From: Pirellulales bacterium
Lineage (GTDB): Bacteria > Planctomycetota > Planctomycetia > Pirellulales > Thermoguttaceae
Direction of reading: 5' to 3'
DNA length: 46,466 bases
NCBI GenBank assembly: GCA_016931995.1
Contig: JAFGDS010000035.1
Coordinates: 1-46,466, forward strand
The notes under the pieces are model-generated. The model ran no database searches. It saw only the letters and a program-made list of their open reading frames with translations, and had not been told where the DNA came from. The number at the start of each line of letters is the position of its first letter. Within the stretch, counting starts at the first letter, position 1. Below, one piece after another: positions 1,623 to 23,265 of the stretch. Position numbers and translations under genes: made by a program.

Positions 1623-1679
1623 ACGAGGGTGGCCCATTCGTGGCATGTCGTAATCGACCGAGATGGCAGGAGAAACACG

Positions 1680-3521
1680 ATGACGAGAAGCTCGATTCGA
1701 TGCGCGGTCGTTCTGGCGGGGGCGTTGGCGATGGCGTTGGGTGGCGCCGCGCAGGCGACGCTCATCGGCCTATGGCAATTCAACGAGGGTGCCGGCACGC
1801 AGACGGCGGACGCGTCGGGCAACGGTTTGAACGGCGTGCTGTCAGCCCAGACCGGCAGCAGTGTGCCGGCGTGGATCACGGGCCAGAGCGGCGCGGCGGG
1901 AGACCATGCATTGCGTTTCGGCGTTGGCGGCAACAACATGAACCTCGTTCGGGCGGCCTACCAGCCGATCATGGACAACCCCTCGGCGACCCATCAGGTG
2001 ACGCTGGCCGCGTGGGTCTCCAGCGAGGAGGTTTACGAAGGGGGGATTCTGTCGATGTACAACTATGGCCGCGTGGTGCAGCGGAACATGTTTTCGTTGT
2101 ATCTCGACAGTCTCTATACGGCGGACGCGGTCAGCGGCAGTCTGAATCTCTTCGGGACCGACGCCCACTATTACGACAACCCGGCAACGGAGATTCCCGT
2201 CTCGCCCGACAGCTCGACCGCGCCCGCGTGGACCCACGTGGCCATGACCTACGACGGCACGGACATGAAGTTTTACGTGAACGGCACATTGAAAGACACG
2301 TTTAACGCGCCGGGAGTGATCGAGTCGGATTGGTATTCCTGGGTCGAGATGGGCAACCAGGCCAGCTACGACCGGCAGTTGGCCGGCGCGCTGGACGACG
2401 TGGCGATCTTCGACACCGCGCTGGATCAGGCCGACGTGGCGAGGATCATGGGGGGCGATTTCACGGGCTTTGGACCTCCGGCGCGGGAAGGGGCGCACGC
2501 CTACGGCGCGGCGGTGGCGGCGTTGAACCCGACGCACTACTACCATTTCGGCGAGGCGGGCGTCGTGGCGCACGACTCCGGCGTGGGCACGCCGATCCAC
2601 GGCGTGCTGCAGCAGGGCAATCCGGGCGGCGCCGACCTCGTGACGTTTGGCCCCGAGCCGGCCGGCGGCGAGTACGGCGACTTTCCGGGCTTTGGCGCCA
2701 CGCCGGGCAACCAATCGTTCGGGGCGAAAGACGTCGGCATGGTCTATCTTGGACCCGGCGGCGCGCTGGCGGCCGAACAGATGACCTTTTCCACGTGGTT
2801 CGGCGCGCCCTCGGGCACGGGTACGATCCAATGGGACCGCATCTTCAGCAACGGGCAGAGCGACAACAACTTCCAGATCGCCATCCACGAAAGCGAGAGC
2901 GTCTCGGAAGCCGGACTGTACATCATGAGCGACGACGACAATCAGAGCCAGACGCGGCTGCTCCGGGCCGAGACTCTCAATCTCTTGGACTCGAAGTGGC
3001 ACCATCTCGTCGTCACGCGCGACGGCGACAACGCGGCCGACATGAAGCTCGTCATCGACGGCGTCGATTGGACCGCCAGCCTGATCGGCGCGCCCTACGG
3101 CTTCCTCAAGGGCGACGACGCCGGCGGGGCTTTTCTGGCGGGCATGGGGATGGGCGTCCTGCAACGATTCTCCGGCCTGATGGACGAGACGGCCATCTGG
3201 GTTGGCTCGGCCCTGTCGGTCCAGGACGCCATCGCGCTGTACGCCGCCGCCTTCGCGCCGCCTCCGCCGGGCGACGCCAACCGCGACGGCGTGGTCGATA
3301 AGAAGGACGCCGCCCTGTTGGCCGCGCACTGGCTTTCGGACCAGGGCGTGAGCTGGGACACCGGCGACTTCAACGACGACGGCGTGGTGGACGATCTGGA
3401 CCTGGCGATCCTGGCGGCCAACTGGACCGCGCAGGGCGGCGCCGCCGTGCCCGAACCGTCGATGCTGGCCGGACTGGCGGCCCTCGTCTTGGCCCTGCTG
3501 GTCGCTCGCCGGCGGCGGTAG
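1680..3521 (+). CDS. LamG-LamG-dockerin PEP-CTERM surface protein
   Basis: A 613-residue exported protein. ATG 1680 is chosen because AGGAG (1668-1672) precedes it and it opens a clear signal peptide (hydrophobic VVLAGALAMALGGAAQA, cleavage near residue 27). Two concanavalin/LamG-type folds follow: about 28-255 (LIGLWQFNEGAG, WTHVAMTYDGTDMKFYVNG, LDDVAIFDTAL) and about 290-520 (THYYHFGEAG, WHHLVVTRDGD, SGLMDETAIWVG). A dockerin-type calcium module lies at about 530-583 (GDANRDGVVDKKDAALLAAHW, then DFNDDGVVDDLDLAILAANW). The C-terminus is a textbook PEP-CTERM tag: VPEPS, a hydrophobic helix (LAGLAALVLALLVA) and RRRR. In this family the tag is known to be processed by an exosortase. A role in binding carbohydrate or matrix at the cell surface is inferred; no catalytic domain is visible. 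Confidence 0.9.
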   Translation: MTRSSIRCAVVLAGALAMALGGAAQATLIGLWQFNEGAGTQTADASGNGLNGVLSAQTGSSVPAWITGQSGAAGDHALRFGVGGNNMNLVRAAYQPIMDNPSATHQVTLAAWVSSEEVYEGGILSMYNYGRVVQRNMFSLYLDSLYTADAVSGSLNLFGTDAHYYDNPATEIPVSPDSSTAPAWTHVAMTYDGTDMKFYVNGTLKDTFNAPGVIESDWYSWVEMGNQASYDRQLAGALDDVAIFDTALDQADVARIMGGDFTGFGPPAREGAHAYGAAVAALNPTHYYHFGEAGVVAHDSGVGTPIHGVLQQGNPGGADLVTFGPEPAGGEYGDFPGFGATPGNQSFGAKDVGMVYLGPGGALAAEQMTFSTWFGAPSGTGTIQWDRIFSNGQSDNNFQIAIHESESVSEAGLYIMSDDDNQSQTRLLRAETLNLLDSKWHHLVVTRDGDNAADMKLVIDGVDWTASLIGAPYGFLKGDDAGGAFLAGMGMGVLQRFSGLMDETAIWVGSALSVQDAIALYAAAFAPPPPGDANRDGVVDKKDAALLAAHWLSDQGVSWDTGDFNDDGVVDDLDLAILAANWTAQGGAAVPEPSMLAGLAALVLALLVARRRR

Positions 3522-5311: not shown

Positions 5312-8300
5312 TCACTCCAACAGGGCGTCGACGACGGGCGGGGCCGGACGCAGGGATTTCAGGCGTTTTGGCGAGGCCGAGGAAGCGGGCAATTGCCGCG
5401 GGCCGATGAATCCACGATCGGCCACGGCGCTGGCATCGCCCGTTGGGTCGTCGCCGGTCCAGTTGGCGGCGAGAATCGCGAGGTCCAGGTCGTCCACGCG
5501 GCGGTCGGCGTTGAAGTCGCCCTGGGCCCAGATCTTGTCGGACGCAAGCCAGTTCGAGGCGAGCGCGGCCGCGTCCGCGCGGCCCACCCGGCCGTCGAAA
5601 TTGGCGTCGCCCGGGATGGGCAGTTGCTGGCCCAACCGGCTGGCCAGGATCGCCAGGTCCAGGTCTTCCACGCGTCCGTCGCCGTTGAAGTCGGCGGCCA
5701 GGTCGGCGCCCGATTGCAGCCACAAGGAGGCGAGCACGGCCAGATCCCGTTGGTCGACCATGCGATCGCGGTTGGCGTCGCCGGTCACCACGTTCACGTG
5801 GAAGACGAACGCGCCGCCGGGATTGCCGTCGCCCGAGGGGCCAAGGCTCGCGCCGCTGCGCCATTCGCCGTCCAGCGCGTCGCCGAACGTGTCCGCCACG
5901 TCGTCGGAGAGGATGAGCCAGAGCCGATCGACGGCCACGGGCATGGCCAGCTCCCACGTGGCCGTCCAGGTTTGGGCGTCGTAGTGGAACCCGCTGGTGG
6001 CGTACTCGGGCACGACCGCGCCGCGGATCTCCAGGTCGTCCTGGGCGACGACCACGTCCTCGCTGAAGGTGATCCGCACGCGGTCGATGCGGGTCCAGGG
6101 CAGCGGGGTCGTTTGGTCGGGACCAAAGGGCACGGCGTAGCCGTCGGCGTGGGCGAAGGCCGCCGTCCAGCCGGAGGAGGCCACGGCCACGCCGGTGACC
6201 GTCGGCGGGGCGTCGTCGTCGAGGTTGGTGACGCTCACGTCGGGCGCGTCCAAGCCGGCATACCCGGGGTCGTCGCTCGCGGCCGGCGCGAGCACGATCG
6301 TGTAGCCCACGCCGCCGTCGGCCGCGTCGTCGTCCTGGCCGATCACCGTGACCGTCCGTGGTTGGTCCCAGTCGTCGGGCGTGAAGACCAGTTGCGCGAC
6401 GGAGGGAAGACCCTCGGCTGGATTCGAAGACGAGACGGCGATCGTGACCGAGGCGCTCGGGCGGCTGTGGAGCACGACGGTGAACGCGTCGGTTCCGCCG
6501 GCCTCGGTGGTGACCAAGCCGGTCTTGGGTTCGACCAGGATCCCGGCCGTCGGGTTGATCGTAGTGGTGAAGACATATGGCTCGCCCGGCGGTCCGTCGT
6601 TGTTGTTGAACGGCTCGCTCACGGCGGGACCCGCCTGGCCCAGGTAGAGCCGCACGAGCCCGTCGGCCGAGCCGACCAGCAGATCGACGATTCCGTCGTC
6701 GTTGAAATCGGCCGCGACGGGGCGCGACCGCGGCGTGCCGGGCAGGTCGAGGGGCAGCCCATCGGCCAAAACAGCCTGGACGGGCCCGAACGCCGGCTGG
6801 GCGTCGGTGCCCACGTTGGCGTGGAAGAGGATCTGCCCATCGGTGTTGCCCACCACGAGGTCTTTCCGGCCGTCGGCGTCGAAATCCACCACGGCGACGC
6901 TTGCTCGCCCGCTGGGCACGATCAAATCGGTCGATCCGTCGGTGAGCACGTCGTCCGCGTGGAAGTCCGGCGCGCCGGCAAGAGCCTGGTCGATGAGGAC
7001 GTGGACGCGGCCGTCCATGCCGCCGATGACGAGATCGAAACGGCCGTCGTTGTCCCAATCGACCACGTCGAGCGTCGCGCGGCTGCCGACGTCCAGCGCG
7101 GCCTTCGCGCCGGGCGAGCCGACCTGCACCATGCCGGCCGAGACAAATCGCGGCTGGGCGCTGGCGCCCACGTTGGTGAACAGTTCGATCATGCCGTCGG
7201 CGCGGCCCACCAGCAGGTCTTGCCGACCGTCGCGGTCCCAATCGGCCACGCGGGGGAATGCGCCCAGGCATCCGCCGCCGGGCACGGAGACCGGTTGGCC
7301 GGAATCGAGCAGGGCCACGCCGGCCGCTTCAAACACGGGCGCGGCGGCCGTGCCCACGTTCAGGTACACCCGGACCTGCCCCTGGCCCGATGCCGTCTTC
7401 TCGCCGACCAGGAGATCGGCCAGTCCGTCGGCGTTCCAATCGGCCACGGCGGGCACGGAGTATTCGTCGACGGCCAGGTCGGCGCCGTCGGCCTGGACGA
7501 ACACGGCCGGCGCGAGGGCCGGGAAGCCGAACGTGATCCGTCCGCCCGAGCCGCCGCGGAGCAGGTTGCCCGCCACGTCGGACAAAAGACTGCCGTCGAG
7601 CGTGATTTCGTAGTTTCCGCCCGGCAGCGCCCCGGCAAACGACTCGAGCGAGAGCGTCAACGTGTTGGTTGCCGCGTCGTACGAGAACTGATCGGCCGAA
7701 AGCGCGATGGGCCCCTCGGCCAGGTGTTCCAGCGACACGGCCGCGAGGATCGATCCGTTGGCCAGCATCGCCGCGATCGCCATGGGTTCGGAAAAGCGGA
7801 TCGCGATACGGTCGGTCGAAGTCGCGGTGAATTGCAGCGGCGCATCGACCTCGAGCACCATCGGGTTGGACTGATCGACGAACACGTCGAAGAAGCTATC
7901 CACCCAGTTGCCCGCCGCGTCGGTCGCCCGGGCGCGGAGGCGATGGGTCCCCGCGGCGGCAAACGCGATGGGGGCCGAGAAGGACGTGCCGTTCACCGTG
8001 GCGGGACCCAGGTCCACTCCGGTGGTCGCGTCGCGCAGGGTCACGGCAAGGCCGGTCTCGGCCAGCGTGCCGGAGAACGTCACGGCCAGGACGTTGGTCC
8101 GCCCGTCGATCGCGGATTCGCCCGTGTCGGGCGAGATGGTTAGGCCGGCGGCCGCGGCGGGCGGCTGGGTGTCCATCGTCCACGCGAGCGACGCGGCGTT
8201 CGTGCTGGGGTTGCCCGCCAGGTCGCGCACGACGCCGGGCGAGAGGACCAGCTCGTACGCGCCGTCCAGGGCCGTGAGTGCGCCCAGCGGCGTCAAGAGA

Positions 8301-11300
8301 TAGGTCGTGCCCGAGACGTGTGAAAGCGTCGCGCCCGGTCCGAGCAGATCGGCTCCGCCGTCGCGCGACAGCGCGGCTAGCGCCGGATCGAACGACGCCG
8401 GATCCACCAGTTCGGAGAGCGTAATCGACAGACTCGTCACGGGCGTGTTGACAATCGGACCGACGCCGAGCACGAGGTCCACGGTCGGGCCGGTCGTGTC
8501 CACGGTCCAGGCGAACGTCCTTTGGCCGACGCCGGGGTTGCCTTCGAGGTCCTCGACGCCCACGGCGGATACCACGAGTTGGTAGGCCCCTTCGTCGGCG
8601 GTCACGTCGGCAAAGGGTCCCACGCGGAACGTGGCGGGCCCGGTTTGCGTGAACGAGAGACCCTCGCCCAACAGATTCGCGCCGCCGTCGCGGGTGAGCA
8701 GGAAGTCCTCGACGCCCAGCGTGCCGGGCTGGATCGGCTCGGAAAAGGTGACGTCGATGAACCCGAGCGGGAGTTGGGTCGCGCCGGAGGGGATTCCCGC
8801 CACGGCGACGATGCCGGGCACGTCGCCCAGGGCGACCCACTGGATGGACGCGGCGCCCGTGCCGGCGTTGCCCAGCGGATCGGCCACGCCCGCGGCGCTG
8901 GCGGTGAACGTATACGACCCCGGTTCGGCGGTCCACGCGGCCAGGCCGGCGATCCGGTAGACCGCGCCGCCGACATGGCCGATCGAGACGCCGGCGCCCA
9001 GCAGGTTGGGCCCGCCGTCGCGCGACAGGACAAAATCGGCGGCGGTCAGCGTTGCCAGATCAATCGGTTCGCTGAAGGTGACATCGACCGCGACGACCGG
9101 CTCGACCTGGGGCTCGTCGCCGGGGCCGTCGATGGCGACCACCACGGGCCCGACCTGATCGCGGGGCGCGTAGGTGAGCGTGTACGCGTGGACGCCGGCG
9201 GTGGCCATGCGGTCGAACAGGTGCAGATTGTCTTCGTCGAGCGGCCGGCGGCCCAACTCGATGAACGTGCGGTCCGTCTGCCAGAAGTTGTCCAAGGGCA
9301 CCAGCGTGCCATCGTCGCGCCGGACCTCGACAAGCTGGAACTCGCTTCCGCCGGGATCGCTCATGCGGAGGTAGTTCCAGCCCTCGGTCGCGCTCAGGGT
9401 GAGCTGGACCACGCGATCGGCGGCCGTCACGAGGCCATCGGCCGCCGCATCCTCGGCCAGGGCCACCGGCTCCACGCGGCCGTCGGACAGATGCACGGTG
9501 TCGGGCAGATCGTGGAACCACTCGCTCGCGCCCGGCACTTGCGTGAAGTCGGCCACGTCGTTGGTGAGGAAATCGGGAAGTCCGTCCTCGTCGGCTCGGT
9601 CGGCGTGGACCACGTGGATCATTTCGTGGATCTCGACGCTCTTGACCAGCGACAGCCGCGGGTCGCCCAGGCCGTCGAGGTGCTCGAAGGTGGCCGCGTA
9701 GTCGATGAACTGGCCCTGCAGCGTCGAGGCAAGCCACCACGTGGCAATCTCGATGCTGCCCGGGGCGACGTCGCCGAAGTCGGCCGTAAGCGACGGCGTC
9801 ATGTTCTGGCCGGCCACCTCCGTGGCGAGGATATCGAAGTCGATCAGGAGGCCCTTCTCGTTCTCGAGGATCTCGGGCTGGGCCGAGGTGATCGTGAGAT
9901 TGCGCGCCGCGCCGGCTCCGTGGTTTTGCACCATCACCGCCAGGGCGAACGGCTGCGAGGGCTCCACCTCGTCCGTCCAGGGATCGTCGGCATAGACGTC
10001 CCGCTGGTGGAAGTACTTCACGTCGAGCGCCGCGTCGGGATGCACGGTCATCCAGACGGGCTCCAAGGGCACGATCACCCGATGTCCCTCGTGGACGTAC
10101 GAGAGCGTGCCGCCGATGCCGAAAAGCGCCGGCGCCGTGGGGGCGGCCGCGTCGGTGGGCACGATCAGCCACGAGGCATTGCCGCTCGCGCCGGGACCGA
10201 CCGTGCCCGTGCCGTCCACCGCGCCGATGTCTTCCAGCCGGGGCGCGTGGATGCCGAACCGGTCGGTCACGTCGTTGTGCTCCAGGTCGACGATCTGGAT
10301 GCTCACCAGGACGTCTTCCAACGGCATGTCCGCGTCGTTGTTGACGAGTTCCAGTCCGGCGTCGAAGGCGGACCGCGTCATCACGGCCTGCTGGTCGATC
10401 CGCAACCGGACGTGGGCGCAGACGCCCTCGCCGTCGGCCTGGTCGCCTTGGGTGTCGCCGCAGCCGCAGCCGCCGGCGTCGCCCTGTTGCGTCGGGGCAT
10501 CGCCGGCCGGCGGGTTGAAGACGAGCCCGAGCTTGGCCATCTCGTCGCGAAGCAGCTCCTGGACCTGTTCGGCGGAGAGCGACAGGATGGGCGCGCTGGC
10601 GGCATCCCCGCCGGGCGCCGCCGCGGCGCCGCTGCAACTGTGCGCCGGCGGGATGAGATACTTGCGGGTTTCGACGTCGGGCGTGGTGGGGTCGTCGAAG
10701 GGGCTGACCGTGATGCCGAACGCGCTTACGTAGATCTCGAAGTACACGCCCTCCGAGTCGAGGCGGATTTGGAGTCCGGTGTCGGTCGAGTACGTCACGA
10801 TGATGCTGACCCCGCCGAACAGTCCACCGGATACGCCCACGAGCTCGACCTCGACGGGCGTAATACCGCCTTCCTTTTTCGCCTCGACCTGGCCCTTGGC
10901 GCCGATGTCGAACCCGACGCGGACGGTTCCGTTGAGCGAGGCGCGGGGGTTGTCCATGCCGCATCCGCTGGAGACGGTTCCGCGCAGGCCGGCCGACAGC
11001 GACGCCTGCGCGCCCAGGAACGCGGAGCCGGAGAACGTGGCCTCGCTTCCGTCGGGCAGGGGCTCGCTGAGCGAGACGCCGACGTTGAAGCCCGGCCCGG
11101 CCCGCAGCACGGCGTTCACGCCGGCGGTGGCCCGAAACTCGAGCCCCGTGCTCTCGTCCTCCTTGCAGCACAGGATGAGCTGGCCCTTGGCCTCGACTTC
11201 TAGCCCGACGGAGACCAGGGTCATCGCGATGGCCGCGTTGATGGCGGCTTCGGCGGCTTCGACGGCCGGCTTGAACCAGCCCGACAGGTCCACCTCGCCG

Positions 11301-14300
11301 AGCGTCTTCTCCTCGCAGTCGCATTCGATCTCGCCGTCGAACTCGAAGGGGATGAAATCGACGCCGGGGAACGCGACCGGGTTGATCGTGACCCCGCCGG
11401 GACCCCCGGCTCCGGGTGGAACCTCGCAGCCCGGCACGTCCAGGTTCGTGATCGAGATGCCCGCGCTCTTCTTCACCTCCTCGGGACCGCAAAGATATGA
11501 GTGGTCCACTCCGGCGGGAATGCCGCAGGGCATCGACGGATCGGCCGCGTCGCCCGAGCCGGCCGCGTCGACCGACAGCCGCTCGATCAAGACGGGGATC
11601 GTGAGCGAACTCTTGGCTGGCAAGAGGCCGATGTCGCTCACCAGCGGCGTGATCCGGTACATCGGATGGTCGCCAAAGCGGAATCGCGTGTTCTCGGCGG
11701 CGATGAGGCCGTGGTTCTCGATCGTCATGTCCACCTGCATCGTCTGACCCGGCGCGGTCAGGGGAGCCAGATCGATAAGCGGCGGATCGACCGTCACCAC
11801 CGGCGCGGGCACGTTGGTCTCGAACACGGTTTGGATCGAGATCCTCGTCCGGTCCTGGATTTCGGTTTCCTCGACTTTCCAGATGTACTTGACCGTTTGC
11901 TGCGTGAGGAAGGCCAGGACGGGCGTGGTCTGACCGGCGGTGACGAAGACGGTCTTGCGGCAATCGCCGTGCGCCTCCGCGCGGACGTCGAGCGTGTAGT
12001 AGCCCTCGGGCACGTCGGAGAAAACCGCGTCGCCCTGCGCGTCGGTCGTCGCCCGGGCAATCTCGGCGCCGGTGACCGCGTCCAGAAGCGCGACCGTCGC
12101 GCCGGCCAGCGAGGGCGCTTCGGCGGTGAAGTAGTACAGCTCGTCGATGGCGGTGACCGCAAGGTCGCCCTTGGCCTCGGAGACCACGCGGAACGTAAAG
12201 GGCATCGACAGGGCGCTGTCCGACGCGGTCAGGGCAAGGTTGCCCTGGTAGGCCGTCAACGGCAAGTCCGCCGGGGGCGTGAGCGTGAGGGTCACGGAGG
12301 CCGACTCGCCCGGCGCGAGCGACGGCATAACGGCGGGCGTGGCCAGCGCGAGCCAGGAGACCGCCGGCAGCGTCACGTCGATCGGTCCGGTGGCCGCGCC
12401 GCCCCGGTTGGTCACGGTGAACTCGACCGTCCGCTGACCGCCCCGCAATACGGCCGCCACCAGCTCGGCCGCGTCGGCGACTAGCTCGGAATGAAACGCC
12501 GTGACGCTCACGGCCAATGGCACGTCGATCGACGCGCCCTCGGACGAGGTGAGCCGAAGCGTCACCATGGCCGATGGGACCGACGCGTCCGCGGCGTGGA
12601 CCTCGAAGTCGATCGGCAGCGCGGCCATGCCGCCCAGCAGGTTGCCCTGCGGCAGCGAGATCGTCACGTCGAGATTGGCCGGCACGTCCAGCAGCTCGAA
12701 CTCAATATCCGTAAGCGGAACGTCGGCAAGATTGTGGAGCGTCAACTGTCCTTGGACCGTTTGGCCCTGGATCACCGCGACAGCGGCGCCGGGTGGCTGG
12801 GCGCGCATGCCCAGCAGGGTGAACGCGTCCTGCACGGGGGCGGACGCCTCGCCGGGATGGGCCGCGCCGACGGTGTAGTAGCCCGCCTCGCCGGGCAGGG
12901 GCGTGAAGTTGACGCTGAACTGTCCCTGGGCATTGGTCAATGCCGAGATGATCCGGCGCGTGCCGCGGACCTCGAGATGGATATTGACCAGGACGAACGC
13001 GGCGGGCAGGTGCGTGTCGGTCGCGGTGGCCGTGCCCGAGAGCGCGACGGTCGTGCCCGCCAGGGCGGTTTCCGTCTGCGTGGCGACCGTGGCGGTGTAG
13101 GCCGCCTCGACCTGGATGGGGCCGAACACGCGCGTGTTGTTCGTCTCGATGCCTTCGGCCACCGTGCCGGCTAGGTCCGTCACGACGACAACCCAGTACT
13201 CGCCCGACTCCCGCGGGGCGCGAAACGGCAGCGTCCGGCTGTAGGAATTCAGTCCGGCCGTGAGGGGCAGCGCGCCGACAAACTCGTACGTGCCCAGGAG
13301 CACGTCGTTTCCGACGAACGGGTCACTCGACAAAAACACGCGATCTTGCCACGAGCCGGGGAACTCGTCCTGGGCGTTGGACCCGACCGCCGCGGCGAGG
13401 CCCTCGTTGGCGACCCGGTAGGCGAGGTCGAAGTACGTCTCGGAGAGCACCGTGCCCGGCGCGGTCAACTGGGTGATGACCAGGTCCGGCAAGTCGACGT
13501 CCGAGACGACCACCACGTCCGTGCCCGACGTGAATCCATCCGCCGAGGCGGTAAGCGCGACCGTCTGGTTGCCATCCGATTCGCCGTCTTCGATCGTGTC
13601 GACCGAGAACGTGTAGGACGCCTGACCGGCGGGGATGACCACGCTTCCAGGCGCGGCAAGCTCTCCGGGGTCGCTGGAGACGAGCGTCACCGAAAGCGGC
13701 CCGGCGGTGTCCGTGTTGCGCGAGACGGTGACCGACGCGGCGGGCGAGAGCCCTTCGGCCACGAGGTCCTTCTGGATGACCACGGTAAGCGCTGGGCCGT
13801 CGTCGTCCGCGATCGTGATGGGGGCTTGCACCGCGCCGGTGGCCAGCGGGAAGCCGAGGTAGCAGGTCGGCGTGGCCGTAAGTGCGACGGATTGCGGCCC
13901 ATCCACGAGGGCGTCGTCCACGGCGTCCAGCCACACGTCAACCGACGTTGCCCCCGCCGGAATGACGACCGATTGGGGCGCGACCAACTCGGTCGTGTCG
14001 CTTGACGAAAGGAGCACGGTCATGGCGGCCGTACCCGCCGGGCTGCGCGTGATCGTGGCCAGGATCGCATGTTGGCCGGCGCCCTCGCTGGCGGTCGAAC
14101 GATCCAGCGCGAGCCCCATCCGCGGCGCGTCGTTGTCCAGGATGTCCACCGCGTCCGTGCCGGAGATGAAACCGGGGGCACGCGCCTCGACGGTGATCTC
14201 GCGGGTGAGCTTCACCAGGTCGTCATCCACGGCCGTGATCTCGAACGCGATCGTGGCCTCGTTGGCGGGGATCACCACGTCGTCGGGCAGCTCGAGCACG

Positions 14301-17300
14301 TCCAAAAGCGACGCCGAGAAGAGCACGGTGAGCGGATCGGCCGAGACGGTGTCGCGCGTGACCGAGACCGTCCACGTGTCGCCTTCGGTCGCCTCGTCGA
14401 ACGCGAGGTCGATAAACAACCGCGGCACGTCCACGTCCACCACAACCACGCCGGCCACGCCGACGACCATGTCCGGGGCCTGGGCCTCGATTGCCACGGC
14501 CTGGTCGCCGTCGACCACGCCGTCGGAGAGCACGCCGATATCGAACGAGACCGACTTCTGGCCGGCGGGAATGGTGACTGTCGCCGGCGCGCTCAGCTCC
14601 GTCGGGTCGCTGGGCGTGAGCATCACCACCAGCGGCGCGGCCGTCGGGCCGCTCCGCGTGACCGTGCCGCGCAGGGCCACCGCGCCGGCGTCCTCGGCGA
14701 CGTGGGTCTTCGACAGGGCCAGCGAGAGCGCCCCGGGCACCTTGGTGACCTGACCAGCCACCGCGGCGTTGTTGCCCTCGCTGAGCTCGATCACGTTGTG
14801 GTCTTGGTCCACCACGACCACGAATCGCAGCTCGCCGATGGGCACCGTGCCGGGTACCATTACCGCTTCCGTTCGCACGATCGGCGGATCGCCGGCCGCA
14901 AACGGCCCGGAACGGATGAATCGGCCCAAGAGCAGATCGCCGCCGGGCGCCGCGTCGGTGGAGAGATACACGGCCTCGACCCACGTACCCTCGGCCGGCT
15001 GCGTGCCCTGGTTGGCCACGGACCAGCTTACCGACACCTCCGTGCCCGGCGTGGCCACGGCCGGCGCGACCACGTCGCCCACGACCAGGTCGGGAAGCGG
15101 CGGCAGCGTCAGCGAGATCGGCCGGGCCAGGACGTTGTTCGCCTCCGAGGCTTCGACCACGCCGCCCTGGGCGTCGGTCTGGACGATTACGTAATACCCG
15201 CCCTCGACCGACGACTCGGAGAGCGGAATGGCAACCAGTTCGTTCCGGACGTACTCGCCCGCCGCGTCCAGGACCGCGGGCCCCGCCGTCGTTGTCAGGA
15301 GCGTGTCGCCCGCGTCGAGCACCGCGTCGGTGGAGAGCCAGACGCGATCGGTCCACGGCGCTTGGGCCGGCGCCGTGCCGAGGTTGTCCACGATCCAGCC
15401 CACCTCGATCGTTTGGCCGAACAGGGCCGCGCCGGGCGCGACCAGACTCGCCGGATCGGTCGGGTCAAGCGTCAAATCGGGCAGCGACACGGTGAACTGG
15501 CCGGCGAAGGCCGCGGCCATGGCGTTGCCGGCTTGATCCAGCACGTCCGGGCCAATCAACAGCGAGTAGGTGCCGTTGGCCGATTGCGTGTTGAATCGCA
15601 TCCGGTACGCGTTTCCTCCGAGCGGTTGGATGGCCGTAATGGCCAGGGGCGATCCACCGGGCGACAGAAGCGTCACGTCGCCGGCGGTCAGCGTCGCCGA
15701 TTGGATCGTCTCGGTGAACATCACGTCCACGAAGCTCACCGCTTGGCCCACCGTGCCCGAGGGAACCACGCCGGCGACGGACGGGGCCGTCTTGTCGATG
15801 GAAAACACCGCCTGATGCGCGACGAGCATCGCGTTGCCCGACAGGTCGCTCACCGCAGGTCCCAGGCTCACCGTGTAGTCGCCCTCGGCCGATTGCTCGG
15901 CGAGGTCGATCTGGAACGTCCGCTCGTCGAGCGTCGAGACCGTGAACTGTTGCGGGTCCAGCGGGCCCGACGGGCCGGCGATCGCCACGTCGTCCGTCGT
16001 GAAGCTACCGGCGAGCATCGGCTCGTTGAATTGGACGGTCAGTCGCGAGACGTTCTGCTTGGTTTTTCCGACGGGCGAGAGACTCGCGACATAGGGCCGG
16101 GTCGCGTCGGGCAGGAGGGTAATGCTGAAATCGCGAGGCGAATTCATCTGGTTGCCGGCGACGTCCTTCACGTCTGGACCGACGACGAAGCTGTACGCGC
16201 CCGGGGTGACCTGATACGCGAAGTCGATGCGGTATCCGCCGGCGACAGGCACGATTGCCAGCGGGAGGACCGGCACGCCGCCCTGGCGGGTGATTCTGAC
16301 GTCGTCGACGCTCAGCGTGCCCGGGTCGATTGACTCATTAAAGGCAATGGTCTGGCTTCGCCACGGCGCCTGGGCCGTGCCGTGACCGGTCGTGACATAC
16401 GGGACATGCGTGTCGATCGTCACGGTGAGAACGTGCTGAACCACCGCGCCGGCCGCCGGCGTAAAGCGGGCGGTGACGGGATACACGTTGTCGGCGAGCG
16501 CCGGCACGGCAAAGGCGTGGACGCCGCCCGCGGCCACGAGCCGGGTGAATTCCGGCGTCCCATCGCCGTTCAAATCCAGATCGATTCGCCCGGCCTCGTT
16601 GACGGTGACGTGGAACGTCGGCGCCGGAACGAACGTGATATTGTCGGACTCGGACATGCCGGTGTCCCACGATCCGGGCAGATCGACCGCGACGGTGGCC
16701 GGCCGCGCGTCGAGGTCGAGCATGGCGTCGTAGTCCGCGCCGCCCAGGAGCGGATTACCCGACAGATCGCTCACCGCGCCGGCGAGCGTGCCGTTGATGC
16801 CCAGCCGGTAGCGTTCGTCGGGCAGGGGGCTGGCGGTCAAGAGCGTCGCCGTGCCGGAAAGCGGATCGAACGCGATCGAACCGATCAAACCCGACACGTC
16901 CACGTCGTTGGCGTCGCCCAACGCGCCGTCGCCGCCGCTGGCCGCGAGGGTGTAGTTGTCCAGGTCGGTGACCGTCGCGGGGTCCAGCCCGCCCAGATCA
17001 AAGAACACGACCGAGACGCCCACCGGCGCGATCGTCGCGCCGAGCACGACCGGCCCGAGCTCGTCGGGATTGAGGCCGACGATCCGCTGGGCCGCGGCGG
17101 TCATGGGGTTGCCCGCCAGATCGGTCACGTTCGGTCCCACGGTAAAGACGTAGTTGCCCTGGGCCAGCAGCATCGGGAAGTGGACCGTGTACTGGTCGGC
17201 CTCGCCCGAAAGCGACGCAATCGCGATGGGATCGCCGGGCAGCTCGGCCAGCGCGACGTCGGCGAGCGTGAAGGTCGCGGCGTCCAGCGGCTCGTCGAAC

Positions 17301-18766
17301 GTGAAGGTGTATTGCGTCCAGGGCGCTTCGGCCTCGCTTGGGCCGGGCAGAAGCGACGGCGCCTGGCGATCGAGTGTCACCCGCATCGAGTCCTGCACCG
17401 TATCGCCCGAGGCCGGCTCGAAAACGACCACGGCCGTGTACGCGTCGTCCGCCGAATAGGAGCCCACCAGCACGTACGTGCCCGGGCCCGGCACGATCTG
17501 CGAGGCGTCCGTCGTGCCGTCGCCGTCGAAATCGAGCGCGATCCGGCCGATCTTGTTGACGGTCACTTCGAAGGTGGGCGAGGCGACGTTGGTGATTCCG
17601 TCGGTTGGAGACGCCCCCGAGTCGCTCGCCGCGGCCAGGGCCAGAGAGACCGCCGGCGCGTAGGTGTCGAGTCCGAACGTGGCCACGAAGTCGTCGCCGC
17701 CCGTGCCGTCGCCGTCGCCGTCGAGCGGATTGCCTTCCAGGTCGTGCAAGCCGGACTCGCCGGAGCGAACGGTAAGCTGGTAGTAGCCATCGACCAGTCC
17801 GCCGGTCGGGCCGAGATTCGTGTAGCGGACGCCCGGTTGGCTATAGTTGTAGAAGCCGATCCGCCCATCGCCCAGCGGGCTGGCGTCCACCACGCCCGCG
17901 TCCCATACGACCGCGCCGTCGACGGATCGCGTGACCAATACGTCGATCGTGCCGTTGGATTGATAATCGACCTGGAAGTCGTAATCCGTTTGGGCCTGCC
18001 AACCAACGGCCGGGCCGGCGGCGAGGATCTCGACGTGCGGATCGGCCGGATCGAGCGTCCACAGGTCGGCGCGGTTGCCGATGGTGCCGGTGGCGGTCAC
18101 TTTGGCCAGCGTGAGGCCCGCGTGGGCGGCGCCCTGGGCGGCTTGCTTCCAGGCCAAGAGGTAGAAATCATCCGGTAATCCGGTTTCCGGATGGAGCTGC
18201 GCGCCGAAGACGACGCCGACGTAGTCGTCGTCGCCGGCATCGACCACCGTGATCCGGCTGGTGAACCGGTTGCCGATCACGTCGTCCGGTCCGAGGAAGA
18301 ACGTCGAGCCGCCGTTGATCTGCTGCACGACGCTTGCGCCGCCCTCCTCGAGCTGCCAGTCGCCGTAAATACCCCGCGGAAACCCGTAGTCCGTCTCGGC
18401 CCAGTCGGAGAGGTCGTCCACGGTGGAGAGCTCGATCCGGGTGGTTCCATCGGCGTAACGCGGCAGGACGCGCACGGCCAGATCGTCGCCTCCGCCGGGC
18501 AGGCGGTCGACGCCGAGATGGACTAGTTCATACCGCGCGGCGTCGCGGGCTTCGGCGCCCAGCACGGGCTCGGAGAGGTTCAAGAGGACCGACGCGGTCG
18601 GCTCGGTCGCCAGCCCGGCGGGATCGATGGCCGTGATGGTCGGATTGCCGGAGAGCAGATGCCGCGGCTCGAGCGCCTCGAGCCAGGGCGCGGCCCGGCG
18701 GACCGATCGGCACGCCGCGCAGCCGCGCCGTCGCGATCGATGGGGCAAATGGCGGAATAGGCTCAT
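5312..18766 (-). CDS. Giant LEPR-XLL surface protein (4484 aa) with TSP-C-like, CARDB, Calx-beta-like, Ig-like, FG-GAP and dockerin modules
   Basis: One uninterrupted 13.5-kb frame. ATG 18766 overlaps the stop of the upstream gene (ATGA), with GGAG at 18776-18779. There is no classical signal peptide; the Arg-rich N-terminus carries ALEPRHLLS (31-39), the planctomycete LEPR-XLL motif. Approximate order: thrombospondin-C-like sandwich (145-320; DDDYVGVVFGAQ, LLAWKQ, GRIGFYNYSQPGVRYTNL); SbsA-type Ig repeats (440-1100); two CARDB (1105-1345); about four Calx-beta-like (1345-1750); a third CARDB (1755-1880); transthyretin/carboxypeptidase-regulatory-like domains (1890-2000, 2250-2340); a Cys-rich stretch (2430-2800); three Ig-like repeats with the LSRDGG signature (3080-3450); five FG-GAP/VCBS repeats (3740-4050); two dockerin modules (about 4327-4440); and a tail with VADRGFIGPRQL. 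A secreted adhesin or scaffold is inferred; no enzyme domain is clear. Confidence 0.9.
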   Translation of the reverse strand: MSLFRHLPHRSRRRGCAACRSVRRAAPWLEALEPRHLLSGNPTITAIDPAGLATEPTASVLLNLSEPVLGAEARDAARYELVHLGVDRLPGGGDDLAVRVLPRYADGTTRIELSTVDDLSDWAETDYGFPRGIYGDWQLEEGGASVVQQINGGSTFFLGPDDVIGNRFTSRITVVDAGDDDYVGVVFGAQLHPETGLPDDFYLLAWKQAAQGAAHAGLTLAKVTATGTIGNRADLWTLDPADPHVEILAAGPAVGWQAQTDYDFQVDYQSNGTIDVLVTRSVDGAVVWDAGVVDASPLGDGRIGFYNYSQPGVRYTNLGPTGGLVDGYYQLTVRSGESGLHDLEGNPLDGDGDGTGGDDFVATFGLDTYAPAVSLALAAASDSGASPTDGITNVASPTFEVTVNKIGRIALDFDGDGTTDASQIVPGPGTYVLVGSYSADDAYTAVVVFEPASGDTVQDSMRVTLDRQAPSLLPGPSEAEAPWTQYTFTFDEPLDAATFTLADVALAELPGDPIAIASLSGEADQYTVHFPMLLAQGNYVFTVGPNVTDLAGNPMTAAAQRIVGLNPDELGPVVLGATIAPVGVSVVFFDLGGLDPATVTDLDNYTLAASGGDGALGDANDVDVSGLIGSIAFDPLSGTATLLTASPLPDERYRLGINGTLAGAVSDLSGNPLLGGADYDAMLDLDARPATVAVDLPGSWDTGMSESDNITFVPAPTFHVTVNEAGRIDLDLNGDGTPEFTRLVAAGGVHAFAVPALADNVYPVTARFTPAAGAVVQHVLTVTIDTHVPYVTTGHGTAQAPWRSQTIAFNESIDPGTLSVDDVRITRQGGVPVLPLAIVPVAGGYRIDFAYQVTPGAYSFVVGPDVKDVAGNQMNSPRDFSITLLPDATRPYVASLSPVGKTKQNVSRLTVQFNEPMLAGSFTTDDVAIAGPSGPLDPQQFTVSTLDERTFQIDLAEQSAEGDYTVSLGPAVSDLSGNAMLVAHQAVFSIDKTAPSVAGVVPSGTVGQAVSFVDVMFTETIQSATLTAGDVTLLSPGGSPLAITAIQPLGGNAYRMRFNTQSANGTYSLLIGPDVLDQAGNAMAAAFAGQFTVSLPDLTLDPTDPASLVAPGAALFGQTIEVGWIVDNLGTAPAQAPWTDRVWLSTDAVLDAGDTLLTTTAGPAVLDAAGEYVRNELVAIPLSESSVEGGYYVIVQTDAQGGVVEASEANNVLARPISLTLPPLPDLVVGDVVAPAVATPGTEVSVSWSVANQGTQPAEGTWVEAVYLSTDAAPGGDLLLGRFIRSGPFAAGDPPIVRTEAVMVPGTVPIGELRFVVVVDQDHNVIELSEGNNAAVAGQVTKVPGALSLALSKTHVAEDAGAVALRGTVTRSGPTAAPLVVMLTPSDPTELSAPATVTIPAGQKSVSFDIGVLSDGVVDGDQAVAIEAQAPDMVVGVAGVVVVDVDVPRLFIDLAFDEATEGDTWTVSVTRDTVSADPLTVLFSASLLDVLELPDDVVIPANEATIAFEITAVDDDLVKLTREITVEARAPGFISGTDAVDILDNDAPRMGLALDRSTASEGAGQHAILATITRSPAGTAAMTVLLSSSDTTELVAPQSVVIPAGATSVDVWLDAVDDALVDGPQSVALTATPTCYLGFPLATGAVQAPITIADDDGPALTVVIQKDLVAEGLSPAASVTVSRNTDTAGPLSVTLVSSDPGELAAPGSVVIPAGQASYTFSVDTIEDGESDGNQTVALTASADGFTSGTDVVVVSDVDLPDLVITQLTAPGTVLSETYFDLAYRVANEGLAAAVGSNAQDEFPGSWQDRVFLSSDPFVGNDVLLGTYEFVGALPLTAGLNSYSRTLPFRAPRESGEYWVVVVTDLAGTVAEGIETNNTRVFGPIQVEAAYTATVATQTETALAGTTVALSGTATATDTHLPAAFVLVNIHLEVRGTRRIISALTNAQGQFSVNFTPLPGEAGYYTVGAAHPGEASAPVQDAFTLLGMRAQPPGAAVAVIQGQTVQGQLTLHNLADVPLTDIEFELLDVPANLDVTISLPQGNLLGGMAALPIDFEVHAADASVPSAMVTLRLTSSEGASIDVPLAVSVTAFHSELVADAAELVAAVLRGGQRTVEFTVTNRGGAATGPIDVTLPAVSWLALATPAVMPSLAPGESASVTLTLTPPADLPLTAYQGNLALTASDSALSMPFTFRVVSEAKGDLAVTAIDELYYFTAEAPSLAGATVALLDAVTGAEIARATTDAQGDAVFSDVPEGYYTLDVRAEAHGDCRKTVFVTAGQTTPVLAFLTQQTVKYIWKVEETEIQDRTRISIQTVFETNVPAPVVTVDPPLIDLAPLTAPGQTMQVDMTIENHGLIAAENTRFRFGDHPMYRITPLVSDIGLLPAKSSLTIPVLIERLSVDAAGSGDAADPSMPCGIPAGVDHSYLCGPEEVKKSAGISITNLDVPGCEVPPGAGGPGGVTINPVAFPGVDFIPFEFDGEIECDCEEKTLGEVDLSGWFKPAVEAAEAAINAAIAMTLVSVGLEVEAKGQLILCCKEDESTGLEFRATAGVNAVLRAGPGFNVGVSLSEPLPDGSEATFSGSAFLGAQASLSAGLRGTVSSGCGMDNPRASLNGTVRVGFDIGAKGQVEAKKEGGITPVEVELVGVSGGLFGGVSIIVTYSTDTGLQIRLDSEGVYFEIYVSAFGITVSPFDDPTTPDVETRKYLIPPAHSCSGAAAAPGGDAASAPILSLSAEQVQELLRDEMAKLGLVFNPPAGDAPTQQGDAGGCGCGDTQGDQADGEGVCAHVRLRIDQQAVMTRSAFDAGLELVNNDADMPLEDVLVSIQIVDLEHNDVTDRFGIHAPRLEDIGAVDGTGTVGPGASGNASWLIVPTDAAAPTAPALFGIGGTLSYVHEGHRVIVPLEPVWMTVHPDAALDVKYFHQRDVYADDPWTDEVEPSQPFALAVMVQNHGAGAARNLTITSAQPEILENEKGLLIDFDILATEVAGQNMTPSLTADFGDVAPGSIEIATWWLASTLQGQFIDYAATFEHLDGLGDPRLSLVKSVEIHEMIHVVHADRADEDGLPDFLTNDVADFTQVPGASEWFHDLPDTVHLSDGRVEPVALAEDAAADGLVTAADRVVQLTLSATEGWNYLRMSDPGGSEFQLVEVRRDDGTLVPLDNFWQTDRTFIELGRRPLDEDNLHLFDRMATAGVHAYTLTYAPRDQVGPVVVAIDGPGDEPQVEPVVAVDVTFSEPIDLATLTAADFVLSRDGGPNLLGAGVSIGHVGGAVYRIAGLAAWTAEPGSYTFTASAAGVADPLGNAGTGAASIQWVALGDVPGIVAVAGIPSGATQLPLGFIDVTFSEPIQPGTLGVEDFLLTRDGGANLLGEGLSFTQTGPATFRVGPFADVTADEGAYQLVVSAVGVEDLEGNPGVGQRTFAWTVDTTGPTVDLVLGVGPIVNTPVTSLSITLSELVDPASFDPALAALSRDGGADLLGPGATLSHVSGTTYLLTPLGALTALDGAYELVLSPGVVRDLAGNPSTNAASLAWTMDTQPPAAAAGLTISPDTGESAIDGRTNVLAVTFSGTLAETGLAVTLRDATTGVDLGPATVNGTSFSAPIAFAAAGTHRLRARATDAAGNWVDSFFDVFVDQSNPMVLEVDAPLQFTATSTDRIAIRFSEPMAIAAMLANGSILAAVSLEHLAEGPIALSADQFSYDAATNTLTLSLESFAGALPGGNYEITLDGSLLSDVAGNLLRGGSGGRITFGFPALAPAVFVQADGADLAVDEYSVPAVADWNADGLADLLVGEKTASGQGQVRVYLNVGTAAAPVFEAAGVALLDSGQPVSVPGGGCLGAFPRVADWDRDGRQDLLVGRADGMIELFTNVGASAQPRFVSAGMVQVGSPGAKAALDVGSRATLDVVDWDNDGRFDLVIGGMDGRVHVLIDQALAGAPDFHADDVLTDGSTDLIVPSGRASVAVVDFDADGRKDLVVGNTDGQILFHANVGTDAQPAFGPVQAVLADGLPLDLPGTPRSRPVAADFNDDGIVDLLVGSADGLVRLYLGQAGPAVSEPFNNNDGPPGEPYVFTTTINPTAGILVEPKTGLVTTEAGGTDAFTVVLHSRPSASVTIAVSSSNPAEGLPSVAQLVFTPDDWDQPRTVTVIGQDDDAADGGVGYTIVLAPAASDDPGYAGLDAPDVSVTNLDDDAPPTVTGVAVASSGWTAAFAHADGYAVPFGPDQTTPLPWTRIDRVRITFSEDVVVAQDDLEIRGAVVPEYATSGFHYDAQTWTATWELAMPVAVDRLWLILSDDVADTFGDALDGEWRSGASLGPSGDGNPGGAFVFHVNVVTGDANRDRMVDQRDLAVLASLWLQSGADLAADFNGDGRVEDLDLAILASRLGQQLPIPGDANFDGRVGRADAAALASNWLASDKIWAQGDFNADRRVDDLDLAILAANWTGDDPTGDASAVADRGFIGPRQLPASSASPKRLKSLRPAPPVVDALLE

Positions 18767-21700
18767 CGTATCGATCTCCGCAAGGCGCTTTTATCGTTCA
18801 GTCGCCGTCTCACAACAAGACACGCAAAGACAACGACGGTCACCAGCGCGACGCCGGCCGGCTCGGGCACGGCCACCGTGCCGCCGGCGAAGGGTATCTC
18901 GCTCACGCCGGGGCCGAAGAGGCTGTTGAGATGGACCCACTCGAACACGCCCGACGTGTTCTTCTGATAGGTGTAGACGTTCAGGCCGTCGAGCACGAGT
19001 CGCGAGCCCGCGGCCATTTCGAGGCCGTCCAGCCCGCCCATGCCGTACAGGTAGAGGGCCTCGGCCGCGCCACCGGCGCGGTTGCCGTTGTCCAGAATGT
19101 TCAAGAGCATCACGGTGGTGGGCTGGTCTTCCCGGCCGATCAGGAGTCGGCCGAGGCCGAAGTTGCCGGTCGTGCCGCCGCCGGAGCCGAGGTCTTGCCC
19201 GCCGGCTTCGAGGTACTGCACGCCGGCGCCGGCCATGTGCAAACTGCCGGCGCTGGTGGCCAGCTTGGCTTCGTCGGTCAGGGCGAAGAGGAAGTCGCCC
19301 TCGATGGTGATTCCCGCGCCGCTGGCCAGGGTGAGCTGCCCGGTCTGCTCGAGATACAGGCTGCCGTGGACGTTGACGTGGGCGTCGGGGTGGTTGACGC
19401 TCAGGTAGGTCGTGCCCGAGATGGGCAGGTCGCCCAGCTCCAGCGTGCCCTCGCCGCCGACCTCGAATCGCGTTCGACCGGCGAGCGACCGAAGTCCGCC
19501 AAGGTCGATCGAGCCGCCGCTTTCGACGCGGAAGCGGAGCCAGTCGTCGTTGCCGGTCGAGGCGCCCGTGGCGGATTGCAGGCCAGAAAGGTCGATTGTG
19601 CCGCCGTTGGTGGCCGAGACGTCGTAATTGAATACGGCATTGTGCCCGTAGGCGCCGGCGATGGACAGGCTCTGCATCCCCGAAAGATCGAGCAGGCTGC
19701 CGGCGCCGTCGGCCGAGAAGAGCGTCAGATGGGCGCGGTAATCGACCAGCGTGTCGTTCGCGTAACCGGTCACGCCGCTCAAGTCCCACGCGGCGCCGTC
19801 CGCCACGAAAAGCCTCGACCGGTTGACGTCGGTGATGGCGCCGTGGACGAACGTCTGATTGGGCCGGGCGGTGTAGGTGCTGGCCGTAAGCGAGATGAGC
19901 TTGGGCGCGTTGAATGCCCCGCTGGCCCCGATTGCGATGGTCGCGCTGTCGATGCTCAGGAGTTCGGCCGCGTCAAGAGTTGCCCCCGCCGCAAGGCTGA
20001 CACCGGTCCCGGCCCCAGACATGGCGTGCAACTGGGGCAGGTTCACTGTTCGGCCGGCGGCGATGGAGAAGAATGTGTTGCCTGCCTGTTGGAGCGCCGG
20101 CAGGGAGTAGTCGTCGCGGTCGATCTGGAAGTACGTCCGGCCGGTGGTTTGCGCCAGCGCCGCGAGCGGGATATCGCCGCCGGTTTCGATCCGGAAGCGG
20201 AGCCAGTCGTCGTTGTTCGTCGCGGCGCCCGTCACGGACTGAACGCTCGACAGGTCGATCACCGCGCCGTTGGTTGCCGAAACGTCGTAGTTGAACACGG
20301 CATTGTGGCCGTAGGAATTGGCGATGGAGAAGCTTTGCATTCCGGACAGGTCGAGCAGGCTTCCTGCCCCGTCGGCGGAGAGAAGGGTCAAATGCCCGCG
20401 GTAATCGACCAGCGTGTCGTTGGCGTAGCCGGTCGCGCCGCTTACGTCCCAGGTCGCGCCGCGCTCGACAAAGAGTCTCGACCGGTCGACGTCGGTGATG
20501 ACGCCGTGGACGAACGTCTGAACGGGCCGCGCGGTGTACGTGCTGCCGGTCAGAGAGACCAGGTTCGGGGCGTTGAACGTCCCGCTGGTCCCAATCGTGA
20601 TGGCGGTGCTGTCGAGACTCGTGAGTTCCCCGGCGTCGAGCGTCGCGCCCGCGGCAAGACTGATGGCCGAGCCGGATCCCGACATCGCGTGCAGTTCGGG
20701 CAGGCTCGCGGCCCGGCCCGGCGCGATGGAGAAGGCGGTGTTGGCCGTTTGTTCCAGCGCGGGCAAGGAGTAGCCGTCGCGGTCGATCTGGAAGTACGTT
20801 CGTCCGGCGGTTTGCGCGAGCGCGGTCAGCGGGATATCGCCGCCCGTTTCGATGCGGAAGCGGAGCCAGTCGTCGTTGTTCGTGGCGGCGCCCGTGACGG
20901 ATTGCAGGCTGGAGAGGTCCACGACGCCGCCGTTGGTCGCGGAGACGTCGTAGTACCACACGCCGTTGTTGCCGTAGGAGTTGGCGACGGAGAGACTCTG
21001 CATGCCTGAGAGATCGAGCTGGCTGCCCGCCCCGTCGGCTCCCAACAGCACGAGACTGCTTCGCTGCTCGGACATCGTGTTTGCGTACGCGGCCACGCCG
21101 CCCAGGTCCCACGTTGCTCCACCCTCGACCGCCAGCCGCGACCGATTCACGTCGGTTATCGCGCCGTGCGCGAACGTCCGGCCGGGCCGGGCGGTGTACG
21201 TGCTGCCGGTGAAGGAGACCAGCTTAGGGGCATGGAACGCGCCGCCATCGCCGATCGAGATGGTTGTGCCCTCCATGCTCGCGAGTTCCCCGGCGTCCAG
21301 CGTCGTGCCGGCGGCGAGGGAAAACGAGGTGCTGGTCGTTTGGACAAGCGCCGGGAGGGAGTAGTTGTCGCGACTTATCTGGAAATGCGTCCGGCCGGTG
21401 ACCTGCACGAGGGAATCGAGCGGGATGTTGCCGCCGGTCTCGATGCGGAAGCGGAGCGATTCATCGTCGCCGGTCGAGGCGCCGATGACGGACTGCAAGC
21501 CCGACAGGTCGACCACGCCGCCGTTGGTCGCGGAGACGTCGTAATTCCACGGACCGCTGTAGGACGCGGCCGAGCCGGCGATGGAGAAGCTCTGAAGACC
21601 GGAGAGGTCGAGCAGGCTGCCGGATCCGTCGGCCGACAGGAGCGTCAGGTGGGCGCGGTAGTTCGACAGGGTGTTCACGTAGCCGGTCGCGCCGCTTAAG

Positions 21701-22821: not shown

Positions 22822-22934
22822 ATAGTGTCTCCTGTCGCGAAGAAGCGAGATTACTGGAGGGAGACCGTGGCGAGATATCCCGACGGCATGGGCCCGGGAG
22901 CTGGGCAGGCCATTCCCGCCGAAGAAGCGGTGTC

Positions 22935-22963
22935 AGGATACCCCATCCCCCCGGCGCACGCAA
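22935..22963 (-). promoter_or_regulatory. Candidate sigma-70 promoter of the PEP-CTERM/giant operon
   Basis: On the minus strand TTGCGT (22958-22963), a 17-bp spacer and TATCCT (22935-22940). Predicted start is near 22928, leaving a leader of about 105 nt before ATG 22821. The rest of the 444-bp gap 22822-23265 holds this leader and the repeat at 23083-23219; no gene was seen. Confidence 0.45.
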
Positions 22964-23082
22964 GGATTTTCGGGGGGTTGTCTTACACTTACTCGCCAGA
23001 GCGATCACATCGCGTCCTGGATGCCGCAGGGAAACCCACTCTTTCGGGGGCTCTGGCGGGGGCATTCGCCCCGGGTATATTG

Positions 23083-23219
23083 GGAGGCTCCGAAGCTCCA
23101 AATCTCAGAAGCAATCCAAGCTGTCATTCTGAGCGCAGCGAAGAATCTCCCTCGCCACCGAGATCCTCCGCTGCGCTCAGGATGACTTGCGGGGGCAAAT
23201 TCGGAGCTACTGAGGCTCC
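23083..23219. repeat. MITE-like palindromic element with 17-bp imperfect terminal inverted repeats
   Basis: Ends GGAGGCTCCGAAGCTCC (23083-23099) and GGAGCTACTGAGGCTCC (23203-23219) match as inverted repeats at 14 of 17 positions. Inside is a hairpin with arms starting TCATTCTGAGCGCAGCGAAG (23124) and ending GCTGCGCTCAGGATGA (23170-23185). The 3' flank GACTTGCGGGGGCAAATT is shared with the copy at 3648-3735. No ORF; it lies upstream of the gene at 23266. Confidence 0.65.
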
Positions 23220-23265
23220 GTTTGCCGTTCATGGCGCTGAATCATCAACCCGGGAGGCATCAGCC

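Follow-up and report, generated by a model that had tools for sequence, protein, structure and literature searches.

The window, by which we mean the whole 46,466-nucleotide stretch analysed from a Pirellulales bacterium, carries on its minus strand the genes for two giant, probably surface-bound proteins that share a short C-terminal tag, here called FIGPR (Table 1). Giant 1 contains Big_5, Big_13, CARDB and FG-GAP domains and two dockerin stretches. Giant 2 has a LEPR-XLL-like N-terminus, 27 FG-GAP_2 stretches, Big_5, PPC, a dockerin and a FIGPR tail; its ATG start lies 8 codons downstream of the alternative TTG. The protein looks like approximately four long FG-GAP_2 repeat cassettes, each with PPC-like and Big_5/CopC-like stretches. 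The dockerins of both giants are type I (PF00404, a duplicated calcium-binding helix repeat), with 43.9 bits in giant 1 and 31.1 bits in giant 2 against a cut-off of 22.9. The LEPR-XLL model NF012209 gives the N-terminal fragment of giant 1 21.3 bits (cut-off 17) and the full protein 16.4, and the N-terminal motif of giant 2 reaches 18.8 bits with Planc_extracel (PF07595), under its cut-off of 25.5. The other dockerin proteins found in the window, both on the plus strand, end in PEP-CTERM. The stop of a further PEP-CTERM gene, P0003, and the ATG start of giant 1 share 4 nt (ATGA, window 18763-18766, minus strand), and proteins of both classes therefore look translationally coupled.

Table 1. 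Positions in the window of the two giant genes, their terminal features and the PEP-CTERM genes used as contrast.
Feature	Position	Strand	Remarks
Giant protein 1 (P0001, 4484 aa)	5312..18766	-	LEPR-XLL N-terminus, FIGPR tail
Giant 1 LEPR-XLL / Planc_extracel N-terminal motif WLEALEPRHLLSG	18623..18721	-	own profile A3, E 2e-15, the motif being itself a row of A3
Giant 1 last dockerin	5459..5611	-	
Giant 1 block A, DASAVADRGFIGPRQLPASSASPKRLKSLRP...	5339..5437	-	12-mer at 5390-5425
Giant 1 block C, PPVVDALLE at stop	5315..5341	-	
Giant protein 2 (P0002)	24978..36788	-	3936 aa from TTG or 3928 from ATG
Giant 2 LEPR-XLL-type N-terminal motif (CEPLEDRRVLS)	36567..36659	-	own profile A3, E 1.5e-12, the motif being itself a row of A3
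Giant 2 dockerin	25428..25583	-	
Giant 2 block A, PAPVADMRFIGPRRLAAAPVAPRRLAPAR...	25293..25388	-	12-mer at 25344-25379
Giant 2 C-terminus PITVVLPW	24981..25004	-	block C alignable, its Asp absent
PEP-CTERM protein P0003, 1352 aa, ordinary-looking signal peptide	18763..22821	-	contrast, just upstream of giant 1
Dockerin + PEP-CTERM protein	22411..24939	+	contrast, convergent with giant 2
Laminin-G + dockerin + PEP-CTERM protein	1629..3521	+	contrast

Translation of both frames confirmed the motif that a sequence-only reading of the DNA had placed behind the dockerin of each giant. The 12-mer is VADRGFIGPRQL in giant 1 (amino acids 4448-4459) and VADMRFIGPRRL in giant 2 (amino acids 3804-3815), and in both it follows PTG and precedes (K/R)RL, as that reading had said. 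The tails are also as unequal as it had claimed, although we count 25 and 121 residues after the 12-mer instead of about 24 and 118. No Pfam or NCBIfam family appeared for the tails of the two giants among the matches listed. The idea of a conserved tag common to otherwise unlike LEPR-XLL giants that carry no PEP-CTERM is supported, and the suspicion that the motif belongs to these two paralogous tails only fails because five further proteins of the same genome and one protein from another genus carry it as well.

A degenerate DNA pattern and profiles of protein ends located seven tagged proteins in the 5.43-Mb assembly: giants 1 and 2, C121 (963-aa frame), C134 (1852 aa), C133 (2676 aa), C17:24409 (966 aa) and C17:74953 (2207 aa). 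The eighth member comes from a genome of another genus of the family (G013). Their common order is dockerin, 16-51 residues, block A and a variable tail, with 32 to 128 residues from the F of the tag to the stop. Block A reads RF[IV]GPR[QR], then 9-10 residues, R[LI] and a further Arg-rich stretch; its first R is G in giant 1, and an Asp stands two places ahead of the core in all own-genome tags except C133. All seven own-genome tags have the same F, G, P and R as well as one later R without variation, and G-P-R-[Q/R] is kept in 8/8. The net charge of block A is +3 to +5 within 28 residues in all eight, and whole tails range from -6 to +7.

The FIGPR tag family is well supported as real. The own-genome pattern search at 0 mismatches returned exactly giants 1 and 2, and the seven-tail profile recovers its own seven rows at E 1.9e-16 to 1.3e-13, and the best frame outside these rows is a Pro/Ser-rich protein at 4.3e-5. 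Applied to the last 200 residues of 73 LEPR-type proteins, an eight-tail profile gave a bimodal result, in which six proteins, all of them rows of the profile, scored at least 49 bits and the others at most 0.3; the best of 20 shuffled sets reached 4.4 bits and the best internal stretch 3.6. Variants of the motif (e.g., YFGPL, RRMGP and VIGPK) in own-genome C78, C103 and C106 and in L170 of G013 were dropped because the block A profile scores them at or below noise.

The dockerin proteins of this genome differ at both ends. The dockerin profile marks 83 places, several of which are antisense frames or a further dockerin in the same protein; the two that lie at contig ends (C19 and C81) were left out, and 73 C-terminal dockerins were read, 72 from this genome and one from G013. 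Their endings are PEP-CTERM in 63 (PEP then 15-60 residues to the stop in 61, a longer end in two), FIGPR in 8 and something else in 2, which for this genome alone makes 63, 7 and 2 of 72. LEPR-XLL is present in 7/7 of the own-genome FIGPR proteins and was found in 0/63 PEP-CTERM proteins (Fisher p 8.3e-10, with proteins taken as independent and relatedness ignored); 38 of these 63 frames are truncated at their 5' end by the limit of the stretch retrieved, and the absence of LEPR-XLL there therefore comes solely from the genome-wide profile search. None of the 24 LEPR matches found genome-wide lies inside a PEP-CTERM frame, the C133 run-on aside, which is not counted among the 63. This exception is only apparent, as the C133 frame runs in frame from a signal-peptide/dockerin/PEP-CTERM gene into a LEPR gene. 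At that locus (L078/L230, about 29850-37880, minus strand) an esterase-like/dockerin/PEP-CTERM gene without a stop is followed by LEPR-XLL and FIGPR, an arrangement that may be a natural fusion, a lost stop or an assembly error.

All eight FIGPR proteins are thus LEPR-XLL dockerin proteins, and PEP-CTERM occurs in none. By eye, each has an RRLxxExLExRxLL-type motif near its N-terminus. Our own profile recovers the motif in the seven own-genome proteins, six of which are rows of that profile; PF07595 gave the six N-termini scanned 12.6-24.9, below its cut-off of 25.5, and NF012209 had no match in 5/6. Both proteins with other endings, C122 and C124, are LEPR-XLL proteins too. The C124 frame (L232/L059, 18364 to about 25485, plus strand, 2373 aa) stops right after the dockerin (ANLLAPEA) with neither FIGPR nor PEP-CTERM beyond it, and its tail is possibly truncated. 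FIGPR is also absent from fifteen other own-genome LEPR-XLL matches whose ends were read, so LEPR export in itself does not require the tag.

FIGPR tails show no PEP motif followed by a helix and fall outside PEP-CTERM, which is defined by a PEP-type motif, then a hydrophobic helix and then a basic cluster at the C-terminus. Their 19-residue hydropathy maxima are 0.01-1.26, whereas those of the 63 PEP tails are 1.11-2.25 (median 1.75), so that the ranges touch. Judged on hydropathy, the LEPR proteins also seem to lack the N-terminal signal peptide of the PEP-CTERM class, with 12-residue maxima of 0.39-1.68 in six LEPR N-termini versus 2.39 and 2.82 in two PEP proteins.

A single recent duplication of the dockerin end, raised earlier as a possible source of the similarity, was not borne out. 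The dockerins of the tagged proteins are not a recent duplicate set: their mean identities range over 0.60-0.69 among themselves and 0.58-0.69 against PEP-CTERM dockerins (0.63 and 0.66, respectively, for the giant 1 dockerin), and the nearest dockerin is a PEP one in six of the eight, a FIGPR one in one and a tie in one. Furthermore, the five FIGPR codons differ in 27/28 pairs, giants 1 and 2 being the identical pair and the others differing at one to all five codons with the peptide kept. Recent duplication does not explain the motif, since the dockerins are about as near to PEP dockerins as to one another and the codons differ in nearly every pair. The peptide has thus been conserved even though its codons and flanks have drifted, and the tail is joined to diverged dockerins. 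On a tree of 71 dockerins, the FIGPR label requires 5 changes (shuffled mean 7.7; 4/500 shuffles as low), and tagged dockerins are thus more clustered than chance. Few forks of the tree are well supported, four tagged dockerins stand together, and no bootstrap tree unites the FIGPR dockerins as one group; a single older origin may be compatible with the well-supported branches.

A convincing match was found in 2/61 genomes of the family, this one and G013, and no further one among 294 genomes of the phylum, for each of which at most 27 candidates were scored. The tag is therefore not a general feature of planctomycete LEPR-XLL proteins, and we read it, as the best interpretation, as lineage-specific, with its own genus represented by one genome in the comparison. 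The G013 protein is a 1117-aa frame with LEPR-XLL, a dockerin, DTRFVGPRQ...RRLSSPR and PAVDLLM near the stop, and its tail matched no NCBIfam family among the matches listed. Over its whole length, the G013 locus compared is identical to part of JAPLNP010000040.1, from a Planctomycetia MAG of Lake Pavin. A pattern scan of an 84,980-species collection returned three stretches, namely the G013 contig (the same DNA) and two frames from Acidobacteria that we attribute to chance. Because this pattern fits 3/8 known tails (giants 1 and 2 and G013), most relatives could be missed; own-genome records are possibly outside the collection. Weak profile matches were likewise taken as chance: six in five family genomes (E 0.0026-0.0092, frames of 41-224 aa) and others in four phylum genomes (frames of 74-260 aa), with local sequence inspected for five of the ten. 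Occurrence in two genomes implies either that a dedicated machine would be very narrow or that the motif arose recently as an elaboration.

Whether or not they carry FIGPR, LEPR-XLL proteins of this genome and of relatives share a wider C-terminal signature (blocks B and C), most clearly an [AV][IV]Dx[LV]L-like end (block C) for which they are enriched. A regular expression for block C, written after viewing the set, fits the last 25 residues of 19/54 LEPR C-termini, compared with 351/10,800 internal and 877/27,000 shuffled windows (3.2% each). The set of 54 does not include frames cut by contig ends, nor C17:24409 and the G013 protein (both with block C), which were left out because the LEPR regular expression disallowed Cys at the first place; 72 of the 80 LEPR matches taken from outside this genome were analysed. 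In a held-out set the fit was 7/19 versus 144/5,700 windows (2.5%). Of these 19 proteins, 12 belong to G010, which had contributed to the discovery set as well, and they account for 4 matches; the remaining 7 supply 3, one of them loose. For three of the 19 the longest frame was chosen because the LEPR expression does not fit. Block C occurs in 5/8 FIGPR tails and 0/63 PEP tails; giant 2 and the C133 protein lack it, and C17:74953 has an imperfect version. Within the last 60 residues, 26/32 instances end at most 12 residues from the stop, the commonest distance being 5. A W-x-[YFHL]-E motif lies 8-75 residues from the end in 12/54 and 9/19 proteins versus 0.9% of internal windows, 18 of these 21 proteins being from G010. 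Because LEPR proteins are related, p-values for terminal motifs are only a guide.

Many LEPR-XLL proteins in G010 (L186-L204 and L244-L255) share a dockerin-like NATDMLLARNNQTHFLNALKLITVP end, then a WxYE stretch and often an xIDxLLA terminus, and a similar tail behind a different domain in L252 makes the tail look modular. Another LEPR-XLL subset (L143, L147 and L139, from own C124, C52 and C64, and L177 from G013) has an [AE][IL]DFVLxTxGxW-like sequence near the stop, which also fits the block C motif. AlphaFold2 models leave block A unstructured and place low-confidence helices at blocks B and C (mean pLDDT 60 and 66); block A matched no PDB chain.

We infer the function of the tag, including the sorting, processing or anchoring role proposed for it at the outset, from its place and company. 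Position, modularity and mutual exclusion argue that, in the LEPR class, the FIGPR tail acts like a substitute for PEP-CTERM, and we put at about even chances that it is a C-terminal sorting or attachment tag of LEPR-XLL export. Within one cell, FIGPR would then be to the LEPR-XLL class what PEP-CTERM is to the Sec/exosortase class. The giant would leave the cell by the LEPR-XLL route before the tag is read; block A, basic and unstructured (RFIGPRQ...RRLxPLR), could serve as a short linear motif for an envelope partner that keeps the giant on the cell surface. The general part of the signal might lie in the C-terminal helices (blocks B and C), which other LEPR-XLL proteins have in common with the tagged ones. 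Several observations count against such a tag: no receptor, protease, sortase or exporter is recognised beside the genes, the LEPR dockerin protein C124 is untagged, the tag is known from two genomes, the structural models are of low confidence, the top FIGPR hydropathy (1.26) overlaps the lowest PEP tails (1.11), tagged dockerins cluster on the tree, giants 1 and 2 have identical FIGPR codons, and block C is patchy. The main rival is a proteolytic processing site, at which a surface protease would cut at or after FIGPR (the R-Q/R bond by the basic stretch) to free the variable tail and leave a mature giant ending shortly past the dockerin. The conservation of G-P-R-[Q/R] in every tag, unstructured in the model and upstream of very unequal tails (32-128 residues), is what such a site would predict. 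Yet cleavage would discard a second basic block at a fixed 9-10 spacing and a C-terminus conserved in 5/8, and no linked protease is recognised, so we consider it unlikely.

Somewhat less probable still is that the tail is a relic, functionless in itself, which paralogues acquired when the gene end was copied or through gene conversion. Its restriction to two genomes, the identical FIGPR codons of giants 1 and 2 and the partial clustering of tagged dockerins would fit, but dockerins and linkers differ, the peptide is kept despite codon differences, and another genus has kept the tag. Block A might alternatively be a ligand for polyanionic envelope material, or an aid in presenting the dockerin next to it, without any part in localisation; its positive charge in all eight proteins and its constant place behind a dockerin are consistent with this. 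Charge alone, however, needs no F-[IV]-G-P-R, and the split with PEP-CTERM tracks the N-terminal class and not the dockerin, which leaves the ligand improbable. Type I (ABC) secretion, in which a HlyB/PrtD-type exporter would read an uncleaved C-terminus with Asp then hydrophobics near the stop, was first favoured for block C, an acidic-plus-hydrophobic C-terminal motif, and the six LEPR N-termini tested indeed have no strongly hydrophobic stretch. We lowered it to a very small chance because searches with the HlyB model gave no type I exporter. Three draft genomes had no match above the HlyB cut-off; at E <= 1e-40, where 13/14 control genomes give a match too, the model found one own-genome ABC protein, with 291 bits against the cut-off of 725.55. 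This sole match, best named MsbA-like, is below the HlyB, LssB and PrtD cut-offs. Nor is an exporter recognised beside the tagged genes, and a type I signal would leave block A unexplained.

Beyond the tag itself, we tentatively consider, at a probability well short of even, a two-ended export/sorting system for LEPR-XLL giants beside the Sec/PEP-CTERM/exosortase route. An N-terminal LExRxLL would be paired with two C-terminal helices, first WxYE and then, some five residues short of the stop, [AV][IV]Dx[LV]L, and FIGPR would be an added lineage-specific docking or attachment motif on dockerin-bearing giants. If true, such a system would be undescribed. Some planctomycete proteins rank among the largest of any bacterium, and the literature passages searched contain no account of how the LEPR-XLL class exits the cell and is held there. 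A C-terminal signature paired with LEPR-XLL and unseen with PEP-CTERM in this genome is a concrete handle on the export or anchoring machinery, and the short tag peptides could be used for reporter fusion, for deletion or as bait for the missing machinery.

The passages of the literature searched (including PMC8567305 and PMC10952558) do not describe such a C-terminal tag. The Ig-like C-terminal domain of type IX secretion, which PorU recognises, is absent from the Pfam and NCBIfam matches listed for both giants. No protease, sortase or exporter was recognised among the family-searched neighbours of the giants in the window, or, by eye from protein ends, around six FIGPR genes, five at own loci and one in G013, where the adjacent genes look unrelated and none was seen to recur. 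Block C presumably resembles RTX-protease C-termini, and like type I (RTX) substrates the LEPR proteins pair an acidic and hydrophobic C-terminus with no clear N-terminal signal peptide; the genome differs in having no recognised type I exporter of the dedicated HlyB/PrtD kind. To our knowledge, block A has no counterpart in type I secretion C-terminal signals. The passages searched in one review do not show the likeness of block C to RTX-protease C-termini.

All eight FIGPR proteins carry the N-terminal type of LEPR-XLL (NF012209) and Planc_extracel (PF07595), but these families are N-terminal and the tag is C-terminal; neither the library entries matched nor the literature passages searched describe a C-terminal partner. 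The LEPR N-terminus is a putative export signal described by Studholme and colleagues in 2004 (as cited in PMC8567305). According to section 19 of the same article, 20 of 52 T. immobilis proteins with a related N-terminal motif were detected, 8 of the 20 solely in the SDS fraction (PMC8567305). We count this fractionation in favour of a sorting or attachment tag; export of the LEPR-XLL proteins themselves to the cell surface is putative. The closest parallel is PEP-CTERM (PF07589/TIGR02595), argued to be a modular C-terminal region (Haft et al., 2006; PMC1569441), and two exosortase-family genes are present in this genome. Like PEP-CTERM, the FIGPR tail is short, modular, C-terminal and located behind a dockerin. 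Unlike PEP-CTERM, it has no PEP motif, clear hydrophobic helix or terminal Arg cluster, and the proteins that bear it begin with LEPR-XLL in place of a signal peptide.
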